Positions 1-61,690 of a DNA stretch of 63,530 bases are shown piece by piece (the first letter of the stretch is position 1; the number at the start of each line of letters is the position of its first letter). The notes below the pieces were generated by a model, which ran no database searches, had not been told where the DNA came from, and worked only from the letters and a program-made list of their open reading frames with translations. Source of the DNA: a virus; IMG/VR virus record IMGVR_UViG_3300030109_005803, positions 1 through 63,530 of that record. One strand, given 5' to 3'. The position numbers and the translations under genes were made by a program.

Positions 1-2168
1 GTCACAAAAGCGTCACCACAAGGAACCTCGTCAAGAAGATTCAGCTTCTTGGCCATTGTTTTATAATCGTTGTCCATGATCCGAGCACGGTTTACGGTCT
101 CGTCATAGCGCTGCTTAAAATCATCGTACTGCTTCTTCTCTTCCAGCAGTTCTTCAATATTAATCGTCGTTAAGAAATCATCATAAGTTTTTAGCTTACC
201 ATCAAACTGAGCTATCTCTTGTTTTAGTTCGCTGATGTTATCCTTTGTATCTTGAACGTTGGTGGTTAATTGCTTTCTTTTCTCGACCAACTTCTTGATG
301 TTTAGGCGCTCAGTAGGAATAGAGTCGATCTGCTCAGTCAAATCATTGTACACTTGCTCGTTTTCAACCAACTGTAGGCGGATAGCATCACAGTTCTTAG
401 TGTCGGCTAGTAGTTCTTTCTGAGCTTCTTCACAGTGAACCTCAGCAATTGCGATGTCTTTATCGTAATCTGTGTCGCCAACGCGTCGTAGAACAGCTTT
501 TAAGTCAGCGGAGTCCTCTTTTGCTAGCTTAAACTTCTTCTCAAAGATCTCTAAATCCAAGAACTTAGCTAGGATCTCCTTGCGTTTTGTGGACCCCTCC
601 TTAATAAAGCTTAAAGAATCAAGCTGGCTAGCCATTGACGTCAATAAAAAGTCCTCAATTGTGCCAAACTGCTTGCGAATATTAGCATCGGTCTCGTTGC
701 GGGTCGTGCCGTTAAGGCTTAAATCGCCGTCTTGTGTAAAATCCAAGAAGGTCCTAGCTTCATTGGTTTCTACGCCCTTGAGACGCTTTATATACTTCTC
801 GGACTTTCTCTCGATAGTGTAGGTCTTCTCACCAATTTGAAGGTCAATCGTGCCAATACAGTTCTTCTTGTTTTGATTAATAATATTGTAATTCTTGCGT
901 TCGTTCTTTGATGTTGTGTTAAACATAGTGTAAAGCATACTATCAATAACCGATGACTTGCCTGAATAGTTCTTACCGAAGATACCCACAATCCCATTGA
1001 GGTTTGTAAAATCTAGAATGTTACTTTCCCCGTAATTGAACAGATTGTCCCACTCAAAGCGATTAATATTCCAATTTACGTTTCTTGCAATGTCTTCGTT
1101 CTCCTCAATGTGGGAGTTATACTTGCGGTTTAACTCGTAAATCTTCTGGATGATTTCCTCTGTGGGCTCATAGTCCTCTAGATACTCGCGCATTAGACGT
1201 TCCTGAACTGCGACATCTCGTAAGTTTTCGACCTTAAAATTATTTCCAAGACTGACCTCCCCTCTTTCACCGGCTGCTCGGTTCAAAAATGAGATAGACT
1301 CAGGCTTAAAGCGAGACTTTGCCACTTCAACAGCCTTACGCATCACGTCCAAAGGAAGATTGTTGTTACTTACAAGGCGAAGACGAGCACCAGAAGGAAT
1401 CTTAGTGCCCTTTGGCATACGCCCCTTCGGCGTTAGTTCGATCGTCATAAAAGGTTTTGGATTCAAAAGAACATGATGATTAACTGTAAACGTGTTTTTA
1501 TCTTCGATATCCCAAATCAAAAAGCCCTTGTCGTTGGTTTCGCCGTGGTTCTGCTGGACAGTTGAACCGCAGTAGCGAACTCGGCCCTCTGTATCAAGAA
1601 TCTGGTTTGTCTTGTGAATATCCCCAAGCATTGCAAAGTCATGACCAGCAAACACGCCAATGTCGTGATCGCCGTGATCCATAACCCAACCAACGTCAGT
1701 GGACACTCCACCGATCGCGCCGTGGTATAAAGCAATATTAATCCGAGATTGGTCGCTCGGAGCAACCCAGTTCTCCTCATCAAACACGGATAGCACGTTG
1801 AGGGCGAGATCCGGCTCTAGAACGGTTTCACCAGCATTCTTGAGTAGATGTAGGTTCGGAAGATTCAAAGCGCTTACAATGGGTGACAGCGCGTCCTGGC
1901 GGCTACTGTTCTTTAAGTTGCCGTCGTGGTTGCCGAGAATGATGTAGGTTGGCGCGATTGCCTCTAGATTCATAAAGAAGTCGGAGCAAAGCTCAACGAA
2001 CTCTGGTGATATCTGCGTCTTGGTGTGGGCGATGTCGCCGCAGTGGACAATGTAGTCCACATTCTCTTTACGAAGAACCTCGTAAAGTTGTTTGAATACC
2101 TTCTTGTATTCATAATGATATTTTAAATTTTTTATATGCGTATCCGCAATGTGAGCAATTCTATACAC
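1..2168 (-). CDS. Fused Mre11-type nuclease / Rad50-type ATPase (T4 gp47-gp46-like), 3' end outside window
   Basis: One open frame of 722 visible codons starts at a GTG with AGGGG upstream and runs off the window start with no stop. The N-terminal third is a calcineurin-type phosphoesterase like SbcD/Mre11/gp47: DTH at residues 9-11, GD at 44-45, GNHD at 79-82, then YHG and GDIH. A linker follows, and near residue 394 an SMC/Rad50-type Walker A (GKNYSGKSS). After it come long charged helices of a coiled coil, ending at the edge in VPCGDAF, probably the start of the zinc hook. In T4 and in bacteria these are two proteins that form the end-processing complex used in recombination-dependent replication and host DNA degradation. 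Here they appear as one polypeptide. I read the frame by hand: no stop separates the halves and the linker looks like normal protein. The second half of the coiled coil, the signature motif and Walker B lie outside the window. Confidence 0.87.
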   Translation of the reverse strand, partial: MYRIAHIADTHIKNLKYHYEYKKVFKQLYEVLRKENVDYIVHCGDIAHTKTQISPEFVELCSDFFMNLEAIAPTYIILGNHDGNLKNSSRQDALSPIVSALNLPNLHLLKNAGETVLEPDLALNVLSVFDEENWVAPSDQSRINIALYHGAIGGVSTDVGWVMDHGDHDIGVFAGHDFAMLGDIHKTNQILDTEGRVRYCGSTVQQNHGETNDKGFLIWDIEDKNTFTVNHHVLLNPKPFMTIELTPKGRMPKGTKIPSGARLRLVSNNNLPLDVMRKAVEVAKSRFKPESISFLNRAAGERGEVSLGNNFKVENLRDVAVQERLMREYLEDYEPTEEIIQKIYELNRKYNSHIEENEDIARNVNWNINRFEWDNLFNYGESNILDFTNLNGIVGIFGKNYSGKSSVIDSMLYTMFNTTSKNERKNYNIINQNKKNCIGTIDLQIGEKTYTIERKSEKYIKRLKGVETNEARTFLDFTQDGDLSLNGTTRNETDANIRKQFGTIEDFLLTSMASQLDSLSFIKEGSTKRKEILAKFLDLEIFEKKFKLAKEDSADLKAVLRRVGDTDYDKDIAIAEVHCEEAQKELLADTKNCDAIRLQLVENEQVYNDLTEQIDSIPTERLNIKKLVEKRKQLTTNVQDTKDNISELKQEIAQFDGKLKTYDDFLTTINIEELLEEKKQYDDFKQRYDETVNRARIMDNDYKTMAKKLNLLDEVPCGDAFV

Positions 2169-2187
2169 TTTATCCCCTAAAACAAAA

Positions 2188-2217
2188 CTCTATCACCAGT
2201 ATACACTAGTGATAGAG
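2188..2217 (-). terminator. Terminator-like hairpin (alternatively an operator)
   Basis: A perfect 9-bp inverted repeat (CTCTATCAC / GTGATAGAG), extendable by 3 bp past one mismatch, is followed on the minus strand by TTTTGTTTT. It lies just past the stop of the 243-residue gene and would end transcripts coming from it. The same palindrome brackets the -10 box of the promoter at 2198-2225, so a repressor operator is the alternative reading. The stem is fairly AT-rich. Confidence 0.55.
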
Positions 2218-2225
2218 CCTGTCAA
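2198..2225 (-). promoter_or_regulatory. Sigma-70-type promoter for the nuclease-ATPase fusion
   Basis: TTGACA (2220-2225) and TATACT (2198-2203) are separated by 16 bases on the minus strand. The predicted start is near 2191, giving a leader of about 23 bases with the AGGGG ribosome site before the GTG at 2168. Box quality suggests a middle or early promoter read by host polymerase. The -10 box lies in the loop of the hairpin at 2188-2217. Confidence 0.65.
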
Positions 2226-2259
2226 GTGTTATTTTTAGATTTTATTGATAGCCGAAGTT

Positions 2260-2991
2260 TTAAAAGTTTCTTCGATAATCACGCTTAATGTCGTGAGGGC
2301 GTTCCCCAGCGGCTAAGCGTCGTTTGATTTTATCTACATCACCCTGATGGAGGCGACCTTTTGACTTTTCAAATTCTGCTTTCCGAATAAGATCCTGAGC
2401 CTCCTCATCTTGTCCCTCTTCCATTGGAGCGTACATCGGGTTAGCGAGGATGTGGCGAAGAGTAGCAACCATCGGAGCATCTAAGCTCAGACTAAGGGCC
2501 TCCAGATCAGCGGGAGTCATTTTGTTCAGAACATCTCTGGCGTTAATCAGAGTAACGAGACGGCCTTCGGGGGAATCGAATGCTCGATCACGGGTCTCCT
2601 CGTCGTCGGGTTCGGCAATATCTTCAATACCTGCACCGGGGCGGTCGGCTCCACGCATGGCATCCATCTCTTCCTTAACAGCAGCCTTCAAAGCGTTGCG
2701 ATTAACTTTGATGTTCTTACCGCGGCCAGTGTCCTTATCGAACTTAACAGCAACGTTAGTATTCTTTGTTCCCGGGTGGGTGACAATACCGTCGCCATAC
2801 TCGTCGTGGGTTACTTTCTGACCAGACTTAAAACCTTCTTCAAGCTCTCCACGATCTTTCATATCCAAAGCGATCGCAACAGCCTGATCTTGTGGCTTAT
2901 CTTCCTTACCCATAAGGTAAGAAATCTTCTTGCTTACTTTGTCTTCCCCTTCGTTGGCGAACTTTCTAAAGTTTTCTAATATAAGTTTCAT
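2260..2991 (-). CDS. Conserved phage protein of unknown function, with a Tudor/SH3-like barrel motif
   Basis: This is a 243-residue acidic, soluble protein with no signal peptide or membrane segment. It opens with MKLILENFRKF, an opening I associate with proteins of T4-like marine phages. Residues about 57-100 resemble the small beta-barrel found at the C-terminus of UvrD-type helicases (GQKVTHDEYGDGIVT, then VAVKFDKD). The C-terminal 40 residues are strongly basic (KRRLAAGERPHDIKRDYRR) and could bind nucleic acid. The start is an ATG with AGAGG upstream, and that ribosome site overlaps the stop of the small cysteine-rich gene before it. Its location between recombination and primase genes suggests a DNA-metabolism accessory role, but this is only context. 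Confidence 0.7.
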   Translation of the reverse strand: MKLILENFRKFANEGEDKVSKKISYLMGKEDKPQDQAVAIALDMKDRGELEEGFKSGQKVTHDEYGDGIVTHPGTKNTNVAVKFDKDTGRGKNIKVNRNALKAAVKEEMDAMRGADRPGAGIEDIAEPDDEETRDRAFDSPEGRLVTLINARDVLNKMTPADLEALSLSLDAPMVATLRHILANPMYAPMEEGQDEEAQDLIRKAEFEKSKGRLHQGDVDKIKRRLAAGERPHDIKRDYRRNF

Positions 2992-3002
2992 CTTTTAATC
3001 CT

Positions 3003-3080
3003 CTAGCAGCAATTGCCTGTGCAGCAGCAGCAGCAACGTGGTGTAAATAAACTTACAATCTTGTTCCATAAATTTCTCAT
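3003..3080 (-). CDS. 25-residue cysteine-run micropeptide
   Basis: The encoded peptide is an amphipathic, basic N-terminus (MRNLWNKIVSLFTPR) followed by CCCCCTGNCC, so seven of the last ten residues are cysteine. Support for translation is a strong ribosome site (AAGGAG, 8 bases before the ATG), an ATGA overlap with the preceding small frame, and a stop codon that overlaps the ribosome site of the next gene. I do not recognise it. A metal- or Fe-S-binding peptide, or a lipidated or membrane-associated peptide, are possibilities only. Part of the run comes from a TGC repeat, so slippage could vary the cysteine number between relatives. Confidence 0.55.
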   Translation of the reverse strand: MRNLWNKIVSLFTPRCCCCCTGNCC

Positions 3081-3202
3081 TTTGCATTCTCCTTGTCAGA
3101 TAGCAAGTCGTTGCCCATATCGCGAATCTCGTGGAACATAATTGCTCTTTTAAGCATTTCTTCTAATATAATCTTAATCAATCTGACTTTATCACGTTTC
3201 AC
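3077..3202 (-). CDS. Small 41-residue phage protein
   Basis: The frame starts at GTG five bases after the primase stop and ends in a TGA that overlaps the ATG of the cysteine-rich peptide, which suggests translational coupling. The product is basic and helical (KRDKVRLIKIILEEMLKR), a pattern seen in many tiny phage proteins. No clear ribosome site precedes the GTG, and an internal ATG at codon 16 is an alternative start. Function unknown. Confidence 0.45.
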   Translation of the reverse strand: MKRDKVRLIKIILEEMLKRAIMFHEIRDMGNDLLSDKENAK

Positions 3203-3206
3203 TATA

Positions 3207-4142
3207 TTACACAGACATTGCTAATGTCAACAGTAAATAGTTGTCTGGTGTGATAAGGGTCGCTTTGTTGAGACATTTCTGAAAATCATCCTTCAACATG
3301 GACCCGACGTCCTCATTATCACCAACATCAACTTTCCAAACTTCAATGTCGAAATTCAGTAGAGTCCTAATGATATCCAACTCTTTCTTCTTGGCGTCCG
3401 GATCCAGAGCAATATACACGCCCGCGTCTTCCTTGACAATCTTCTGAAGCAAGGCAGAGTTCTGATTTAGCGTGGAGCCAAGAAGAGGCACAGAGTTACG
3501 CCCAGCAACGATAGCATCAAACACTCCCTCTACTAGAATAATGTCCGAACTCCAATCCACAAACAAATCATTGAATATAATGTTTTTGCTCGCTGGTGGG
3601 TTCTTATACTTTGGATAAGCTCTCTTATCATAGGACCGAGAGATAAAGTAGTTTAGATCGCCTTCGTCATCAAACGACGGAATTACAACGCGGCCTTCAT
3701 ACTCGCCCTCACTACAATACCCCATCTTCCACCAAACAATGTCTTGTTTCGTGATACCGCGTTTTCGGAGGTAGTTTCTAGCAGCGAACCCAGTGGGTGG
3801 CATATTTTTGTTAGCCAAAGATACAAAACCTTCGGGCATCTCAAGTATTTGTTTTTCTTCTACTTTCTCTGCAAAAAGATCTTCAAGCTTGTCGTAATCA
3901 ACAGTTTCTGTAATTTCGCGCCACTGTGCTTTATCATGACTACTGCCGAAGCGGCGAATAATACGATAGATATTTTTACCGCGCGTGTCGCATATCCAGC
4001 ATTTGTAGTAGCCTTTAGCCACATTGACAGAAAACTTACGCTTATGATGATTGCAGTAAGGACAAGAAAAAAGGTGTTCATCGTTTGAACGGTAAGATGC
4101 TCCGAGAACATTCGTTAGAATCTTAAGTTTCTTGCTGTCCAT
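3207..4142 (-). CDS. DNA primase, T4 gp61-like
   Basis: This 311-residue protein makes RNA primers for lagging-strand synthesis at the phage fork, working with a gp41-type helicase that is not in the window. Visible domains are an N-terminal zinc ribbon with C27, C30, C48 and C51 (CPYC ... CWIC), a central basic region around residues 115-190, and a TOPRIM domain with ILVEGVFDAI near 202 and LDPDAKKK near 246. The length is close to T4 gp61. It overlaps the RuvC-like gene upstream by 20 bases, so the two are probably co-translated. The C-terminus is hydrophobic (LLLTLAMSV). Confidence 0.88.
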   Translation of the reverse strand: MDSKKLKILTNVLGASYRSNDEHLFSCPYCNHHKRKFSVNVAKGYYKCWICDTRGKNIYRIIRRFGSSHDKAQWREITETVDYDKLEDLFAEKVEEKQILEMPEGFVSLANKNMPPTGFAARNYLRKRGITKQDIVWWKMGYCSEGEYEGRVVIPSFDDEGDLNYFISRSYDKRAYPKYKNPPASKNIIFNDLFVDWSSDIILVEGVFDAIVAGRNSVPLLGSTLNQNSALLQKIVKEDAGVYIALDPDAKKKELDIIRTLLNFDIEVWKVDVGDNEDVGSMLKDDFQKCLNKATLITPDNYLLLTLAMSV

Positions 4143-4644
4143 TTATCCACCCCGCCTTTGCAATCACATAACTATCCGATCGGTCGGCATAGCCAGCCTT
4201 CGGATTACCGTATCTTGTGTATTCTATATCAAAGGAGGGTACGTTGTCAAGGACAAACTGAAGTGCAACGTCTTTTGCCTTCTGTCCCTTTGGAACTTTA
4301 ATGCCGCAGCTCTTTCTAGCTGATGTGGCCGCAAGATACTGCGGCTCAATGCCAAAAAGATTATAAGATATCCACGACACAATTCCATTTATTTTTGACA
4401 ACAAAGACAATGTTTGCGCTGATGAAAACCCAGAGCGGAAGGACTGCAGTGATTGCTCCACATAAATGTGTTCAATAAAATAATCATTTCGTATTGCAGC
4501 CAAACGACCTTCAACTGCAGAGCATTTCTGAAAGAAATTCTTTTCTTTACGAAGATCTATGTGATCACAAACGACGATGTTCCCGTCATTATCTAATATG
4601 GTGTAGCCAGTGATACTGGTTGAGATGTCAAGTCCTAAAATCAT
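4123..4644 (-). CDS. RuvC-like nuclease (RNase H fold), putative Holliday junction resolvase
   Basis: This 173-residue protein has the acidic pattern of the RuvC family. There is an Asp in the first strand (GLDIST, D6), a Glu in the second-region strand (YVEQS, near 63), and two Asp in a C-terminal helix (YADRSDSYVIAK, near 154-157). The family cleaves four-way junctions, and in phages it debranches DNA before packaging, a job T4 gives to the unrelated gp49. It lies directly upstream of the primase, which supports a replication or recombination role. The start is a clean ATG. Which structure it cuts is inferred. Confidence 0.75.
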   Translation of the reverse strand: MILGLDISTSITGYTILDNDGNIVVCDHIDLRKEKNFFQKCSAVEGRLAAIRNDYFIEHIYVEQSLQSFRSGFSSAQTLSLLSKINGIVSWISYNLFGIEPQYLAATSARKSCGIKVPKGQKAKDVALQFVLDNVPSFDIEYTRYGNPKAGYADRSDSYVIAKAGWINGQQET

Positions 4645-59692: not shown

Positions 59693-59770
59693 TGGTCGGC
59701 GTGGTAGGATTCGAACCTACGACCCCCTGCTCCCAAAGCAGGTGCGCTAACCAGACTGCGCTACACGCCG
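59693..59770 (-). tRNA. tRNA-Pro (anticodon UGG)
   Basis: This is a complete cloverleaf of 75 bases plus an encoded CCA. The acceptor arms CGGCGTG / CACGCCG pair over 7 bp, the anticodon stem CCTGC/GCAGG is perfect and the loop TTTGGGA gives UGG. The T arm is GTAGG-TTCGAAT-CCTAC. It is the last of three tandem tRNA genes transcribed. A UGG tRNA reads CCA and other proline codons. Confidence 0.95.
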
Positions 59771-59773
59771 AAA

Positions 59774-59849
59774 TGGTGGAGATGACAGGAGTCGAACCTG
59801 CGACCTGATGCGTGCAAGGCAACTGCTCTCCCAACTGAGCTACATCCCC
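59774..59849 (-). tRNA. tRNA-Ala (anticodon UGC)
   Basis: The length is 76 bases with an encoded CCA. The acceptor GGGGATG / CATCTCC includes the G3-U70 wobble pair that identifies alanine tRNAs. The anticodon loop CTTGCAC gives UGC; the stem has one T-T mismatch. Only three bases separate it from tRNA-Pro, so the cluster is processed from one transcript. Confidence 0.93.
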
Positions 59850-59866
59850 AAAAATATTCAACTTTA

Positions 59867-59932
<66 letters not shown>

Positions 59933-59942
<10 letters not shown>

Positions 59943-61377: not shown

Positions 61378-61690
61378 TGGTGGAGGTGGTGGGAATCGAA
61401 CCCACGTCCAAAGTATTTCCAACTTCAAGTCATTCACAGGCATATCTTGTTTCTCTAAACAAGCAAAGTATCAAATTCGATTCAATCCGCTCAAAAAGGA
61501 AAAAGCGTTCTTTTTTGTTTGTTCTTCTTGGACACCCGGCGAAGAACAACCGGGGATCAAGCAGCTAGTGCTAAACCGTAATCTGCGTCGTTTGCAGTTA
61601 AGTGGTTCTAACTAATGTTTAATGTGATTAAGTTAGCTGTCACAACCTGCACTATCCATCTTCCCAACCCTGTCGAAACCTGTCACCCCC
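61378..61690 (-). ncRNA. ssrA: tmRNA (ssrA), one-piece, phage-encoded
   Basis: The 313-base RNA has the tRNA-like ends of tmRNA. The acceptor GGGGGTG / CACCTCC pairs over 7 bp with a G3-U70 wobble (alanine identity). The 5' side continues ACAGGTTTCGACAGGG, the T arm is GTGGG-TTCGATT-CCCAC, and a CCA is encoded. The internal reading frame gives the tag ANDADYGLALAA (see 61557-61595). tmRNA with SmpB rescues stalled ribosomes and tags the partial protein for proteolysis; after charging, the tag starts with an extra Ala. It is a normal one-piece molecule, not permuted. No SmpB gene is in the window. It may be read through from the gene upstream, as no promoter of its own is obvious. Confidence 0.93.
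61557..61595 (-). other. tmRNA resume frame encoding the tag ANDADYGLALAA
   Basis: The frame begins at the resume codon GCA (61593-61595) and ends in TGA at 61557-61559. It encodes ANDADYGLALAA. The last residues LAA are the expected signal for ClpXP-type proteases, and the AND start is typical of bacterial tags. The tag differs from the Escherichia coli tag ANDENYALAA in the middle and is two residues longer. Confidence 0.88.

Follow-up and report, generated by a model that had tools for sequence, protein, structure and literature searches.

A fused Mre11-Rad50 gene is very probably the sole source of this complex in a group of large phages

The window, by which we mean the whole 63,530-nucleotide stretch of viral DNA analysed here, begins at base 1 of a source virus record of 64,886 bases, and its first gene, on the minus strand, is one open frame with a Mre11/SbcD half and a Rad50/SbcC half. 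The frame starts with GTG (2168-2166), with a Shine-Dalgarno-like AGGGG ahead of the start, and its 3' end is lost where it runs off the contig start; since the window begins at the record's first base, the remainder of the gene is absent from the record. The features of this region are as follows.

3..2168, minus strand: fused Mre11(SbcD)-Rad50(SbcC) gene, 722 codons with the 3' end lost; full-length relatives have ~1,050 aa
1461..2168, minus strand: Mre11 calcineurin-like phosphoesterase core, ~residues 1-236, with DTH, GD, GNHD, YHG and GDIH (PF00149 at 3-153, PF12850 at 3-222)
1119..1460, minus strand: Mre11 capping region and putative C-terminal helix-loop-helix, ~residues 237-350, boundary approximate (phrog_100 match 1-463)
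1077..1112, minus strand: short junction, ~residues 353-364, inside 'EENEDIARNVNW', from the alignment of 46 relatives
534..1076, minus strand: Rad50 N-terminal ATPase lobe, ~residues 365-545 (PF13476 AAA_23 at 375-609)
951..977, minus strand: Walker A GKNYSGKSS, residues 398-406, read from the sequence; K404 invariant in 46/46
624..626, minus strand: Q-loop Gln515, invariant in 46/46
18..533, minus strand: predicted first coiled-coil arm (approximate), between the ATPase lobe and the hook (phrog_77 match 286-717)
18..20, minus strand: first of the two hook cysteines (C717 in VPCGDAFV); its partner, the second coil and Walker B are beyond the contig
2185..2225, minus strand: promoter-like TTGACA-16-TATACT just ahead of the start codon; a terminator-like hairpin overlaps it and has the -10 in its loop
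3207..4142, minus strand: DnaG-type primase, upstream neighbour of the fusion (Pfam PF08275 and PF01807; phrog_47, 1.5e-45)
4123..4644, minus strand: RuvC-like Holliday junction resolvase, upstream neighbour (phrog_827, 1.1e-7)

Both halves of the chain were recognised by two profile collections. Pfam placed Metallophos at residues 3-153 (9.2e-13) and AAA_23 at residues 375-609 (1.1e-7), PHROGs matched the SbcD family (4.2e-33) and the SbcC family (1.9e-27), and the fusion profile also hit Mre11 and Rad50 proteins of archaea and bacteria whose structures are solved. Escherichia coli SbcCD (e.g., PDB 6s85) belongs to the same families by profile search, but consists of two polypeptides. In the window, the Mre11/SbcD phosphoesterase is complete, and the Rad50 portion comprises the N-lobe and the first coiled-coil arm, the latter being a prediction from position and sequence; the helix-loop-helix is likewise a probable assignment, based on its position and helix pattern. 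These results bear out the sequence-only reading, which had described a single uninterrupted frame, the five phosphoesterase motifs and a Walker A, all of which are present, with the strand and the GTG start missing from its account.

To the lost part of the gene, relatives provide a guide. A search of viral contigs (IMG/VR) identified 79 distinct loci that encode relatives of the fusion, 47-99% identical to it, and unless a contig end truncates them, all but L022 have it as one ORF that measures 1,034-1,085 aa from stop to stop. Among the full-length relatives the closest is L002 (ORF 235-3393), which is 97.5% identical and supplies the half missing from the window: the second coil, the SGAEKT signature, the ILDEP Walker B, the D-loop and the switch His. 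The second coiled coil and Walker B, which the earlier reading had proposed to look for beyond the window's edge, were thus found in L002 and in other full-length relatives. When 46 full-length relatives were aligned, 16 of the 16 catalytic and ATPase residues tested were invariant in every one. These include the Mre11 metal ligands (DxH, GD, GNHD, H, GDxH), which place the N-terminal half among Mre11/SbcD proteins, and the Rad50/SbcC set of Walker A, Q-loop, signature SG, Walker B DE, D-loop and His switch, whose two halves stand apart on either side of a long coil region; the Rad50 N-half was read in the window itself and the C-half in the full-length relatives.

A single frame of this kind might also arise as an assembly or sequencing artefact, when an indel joins two adjacent genes, and a precedent exists. 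In Listeria phage LMTA-57 (L082, KJ591605.1, 3908-6937) a single-frame 'fusion' is annotated as one recombination exonuclease, yet it follows from a one-base difference and reads through a 95-nt intergenic gap, and the other full-length relatives of this phage that were listed have two frames and two genes with that gap; the LMTA-57 'fusion' probably stems from a single-base mutation or sequencing error. The window's junction differs, since it is conserved protein of fixed length: the segment from Y329 to W366 that spans it has 38 residues in all 46 relatives, which come from many assemblies, and separately deposited genomes of huge phages and of Microcystis phage Mel-JY01 have the same fused architecture. 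The indel in the linker about which the sequence-only reading had worried is therefore excluded by independent relatives, and we rejected the artefact explanation, to which we assign almost no probability.

A scan of genome contigs also gave three close hits in metagenome-assembled genomes (MAGs; L094-L096). Primase-like or tail-like genes are found among their neighbours, as in the window, and one of the three (L096, CP070664.1, a WOR-3 MAG chromosome) is a relative of this phage region that is truncated by masked or unknown bases (a run of N). Bacterial ownership of the gene was set aside on account of these phage-like neighbours and the run of N; the three are likely phage contigs inside MAGs, with L096 a phage contig scaffolded into its MAG, although this is not proven.

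The architecture itself is not new. Fusions of Mre11 to Rad50 had been reported by Yoshida, Claverie and Ogata 2011 (PMC3175470) for Mimivirus (R555), bacteria, plasmids, eukaryotes and Bacillus phage 0305phi8-36. These authors found that fusion homologs abound in aquatic metagenomes, are enriched in the viral fractions and share scaffolds with phage primases, and they suggested that some of the aquatic fusion genes belong to (uncultured) phages. The window's gene has the features by which they defined a fusion, a single ORF in which a short linker joins an N-terminal Mre11-like domain to a C-terminal Rad50-like one, and it shares this domain order and linker with the Mimivirus, 0305phi8-36, plasmid and eukaryotic examples, R555 being likened by architecture only. 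What differs from the 2011 work is that the genes now lie on long phage contigs, and that both ATPase halves are intact in the window's group; in 0305phi8-36, one P-loop NTPase segment was missed in the 2011 paper. The locus fits the prediction of phage-owned fusions (PMC3175470), and the long contigs back the suspicion that phages own many of the fusion genes so abundant in aquatic samples. The word marine, as we apply it to these phages, reflects the settings in which fusion genes have been published and where related phages generally live; it does not come from sample metadata. In the searches made, no literature on phage SbcCD fusions was found beyond the 2011 paper, and a survey of jumbo phages counts SbcC and SbcD among nearly universal core genes, with the fusion unmentioned in the passages concerned. 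The sequence-only reading was right that the two enzymes are separate proteins in T4 and in typical bacteria, as the gene pairs of T4 and other phages confirmed, but its claim of novelty fails, given the published architecture and the ~79 related viral loci that carry it; the search of phage genomes that it had suggested found the same architecture, and such fusions are common in this group.

More distant phages carry it as well. Mel-JY01, in which the gene is annotated 'AAA domain containing protein' (WWT39521.1), and the huge phages LR756508 and LR756501 encode the same fusion at ~31% identity or less to the window, and fall in the same clade. Trees were built for each half, with the separate pairs of T4-like, Herelleviridae, Lak and other phages for comparison and cellular sequences left out; both included the window's group, Mel-JY01 and a 735-kb huge phage, and the Rad50 tree also a 484-kb phage. 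The sampled phage fusions lay on one side of a branch in the Mre11-half tree (support 100/98) and in the Rad50-half tree (support 98/99). These trees support a single origin of the fusion among the sampled phages, which is not proven in general because some branches are long and cellular sequences were left out.

We next consider what the fused protein does. T4 gp47/gp46 (SbcD/SbcC-like), a well-studied recombination complex, comprises the same two enzymes, but as two proteins from separate genes. In the window's group the fusion is the only such locus that we see: in each of the 18 long contigs checked, both families map to a single locus (two ORFs in L022), and no convincing second, separate Mre11/Rad50 pair was found within them, a copy beyond the contig ends still being possible. 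A further two phrog_77 matches, both weak (E 7e-5 and 3e-4), may be coiled-coil matches. A RecA/UvsX-type gene was present in 11 of the 11 contigs tested. The primase also lies upstream of the fusion in Mel-JY01, where the primase-fusion order recurs, and in LR756508 (the 484-kb phage), where the similar order is a RuvC-like ORF (by sequence), a small ORF, the primase and then the fusion. The fused frame, the motifs of both halves, the junction length, the sole copy in long contigs, the RecA gene, the adjoining primase and RuvC, and the single clade together point to a fusion that is very probably the sole Mre11-Rad50 complex (SbcD-SbcC, T4 gp47-gp46) of a large marine phage, in which one chain would hold nuclease and ATPase in cis and feed recombination.

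A specialised role, in host DNA degradation or counter-defence, would be suggested by the observation that most cellular holders of a fusion also keep a normal separate pair, for which reason another function was suggested for the fusion (PMC3175470), and by a record note that T4 gp46/47 is needed for host DNA degradation too. However, the phages have only this one Mre11-Rad50 locus per long contig, and its core setting is normal, with primase and RuvC adjoining and RecA in the same contigs, so that we consider a specialised role in place of the gp46/47 recombination role improbable.

The junction extends about a dozen residues past the Mre11 C-terminal region, which is the size of the 9-12-residue linker that was estimated in 2011 for the Mre11-then-Rad50 order and judged compatible with the solved T. 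maritima complex (PMC3175470). Because the junction has the required size, the fused chain can take the ordinary architecture, with nuclease and ATPase in cis. Alternatively, the chain could be made whole and then processed into two subunits, the fusion only securing their equal synthesis, but a length that is fixed in 46 of 46 relatives is more in keeping with a structural linker than with a disposable one, and we think processing very improbable. In an unprocessed fusion that acts as the phage's recombination complex, two chains would most likely dimerise through their Mre11 phosphoesterases and the apex of the Rad50 coil, and the Mre11 helix-loop-helix would sit at the base of the coiled coil in the same chain. 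The Rad50 heads, driven closed and open by ATP, would then gate the nuclease, which may trim and resect DNA ends and pass them to the phage's own RecA/UvsX, to be used in recombination-dependent replication and repair. On the sequence-only reading, fusion would fix the stoichiometry of the two enzymes and might change how the complex opens and closes. These phages offer many natural single-chain versions of a complex that normally has two subunits, of use for structural and single-molecule work.

One unusual feature of the fusion is the coil apex. The CXXC zinc hook, described as highly conserved (PMC9569753), is retained in Mel-JY01 and both huge phages, and the separate phage Rad50 proteins compared have CPTC (as in T4 gp46) or CPVC. 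Nearly all relatives of the window's gene keep two cysteines at the apex, but most, including L002 (CGDAFVTSC), have them at an altered spacing. Of the 79 loci, PCG-x5/6-C or a close form occurs at 61, of which 48 have six residues between the cysteines and 13 have seven; the others have GCKC (10), CXXC (5) or PCGPDC (L064), apart from L025 and L066, whose apex fell outside the classification pattern. We treat the apex as a variant hook and retain the protein in Rad50/SbcC, since all ATPase motifs are present. The change in spacing looks like one that occurred inside the marine group. It is possible, and we propose it tentatively, that the fused lineage remodelled its hook from CXXC to PCG-x5/6-C (mostly Cx6C, with some CxC), giving a predicted apex that binds metal in a different geometry, or else a hook that works without Zn. 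A limited search found no literature on the PCG-x5/6-C variant. The forms CXXC, CxC, Cx6C and Cx7C make a natural series for asking what a zinc hook requires.

The Mre11 part also contains an insertion site, between GDIHK and GSxxQQNHGE (~residues 190-225), which is seen in L083 (2944-7169), L022 (5992-9382), L004 and L005. The fusion gene of LR756508 is split by an endonuclease-like ORF of 305 aa with a weak TnsA-like match, the second half of the gene having its own start, and that of L022 by a degenerate insert, while L004 and L005 retain an in-frame piece, 'VDEKDLDKYLEDGWEIVEE', of similar sequence. No Rfam match to a group I or II intron was obtained at the L022/L083 insert site.

The promoter-like element ahead of the fusion gene recurs in related loci (L002 at 199, L004 at 5576, L006 at 96, L009 at 5944, L021 at 938, L030 at 5935, L045 at 5938 and L074 at 5944) as TTGACA/T-16/17-TATACT with the -10 in the hairpin loop, and tests of 66 gene starts in related loci found it at 12. 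The hairpin arms covary between loci (CTCTATCAC/GTGATAGAG, CTCTACCGT/ACGGTAGAG, CTCTGCCAA/TTGGCAGAG), and the element resembles the PeSLs of T4-like phages. Toward the other end of the window, genes for tRNA-Pro, tRNA-Ala and tRNA-Thr lie at 59693-59942, and a phage-encoded tmRNA at 61378-61690 (minus strand) specifies the tag peptide ANDADYGLALAA.
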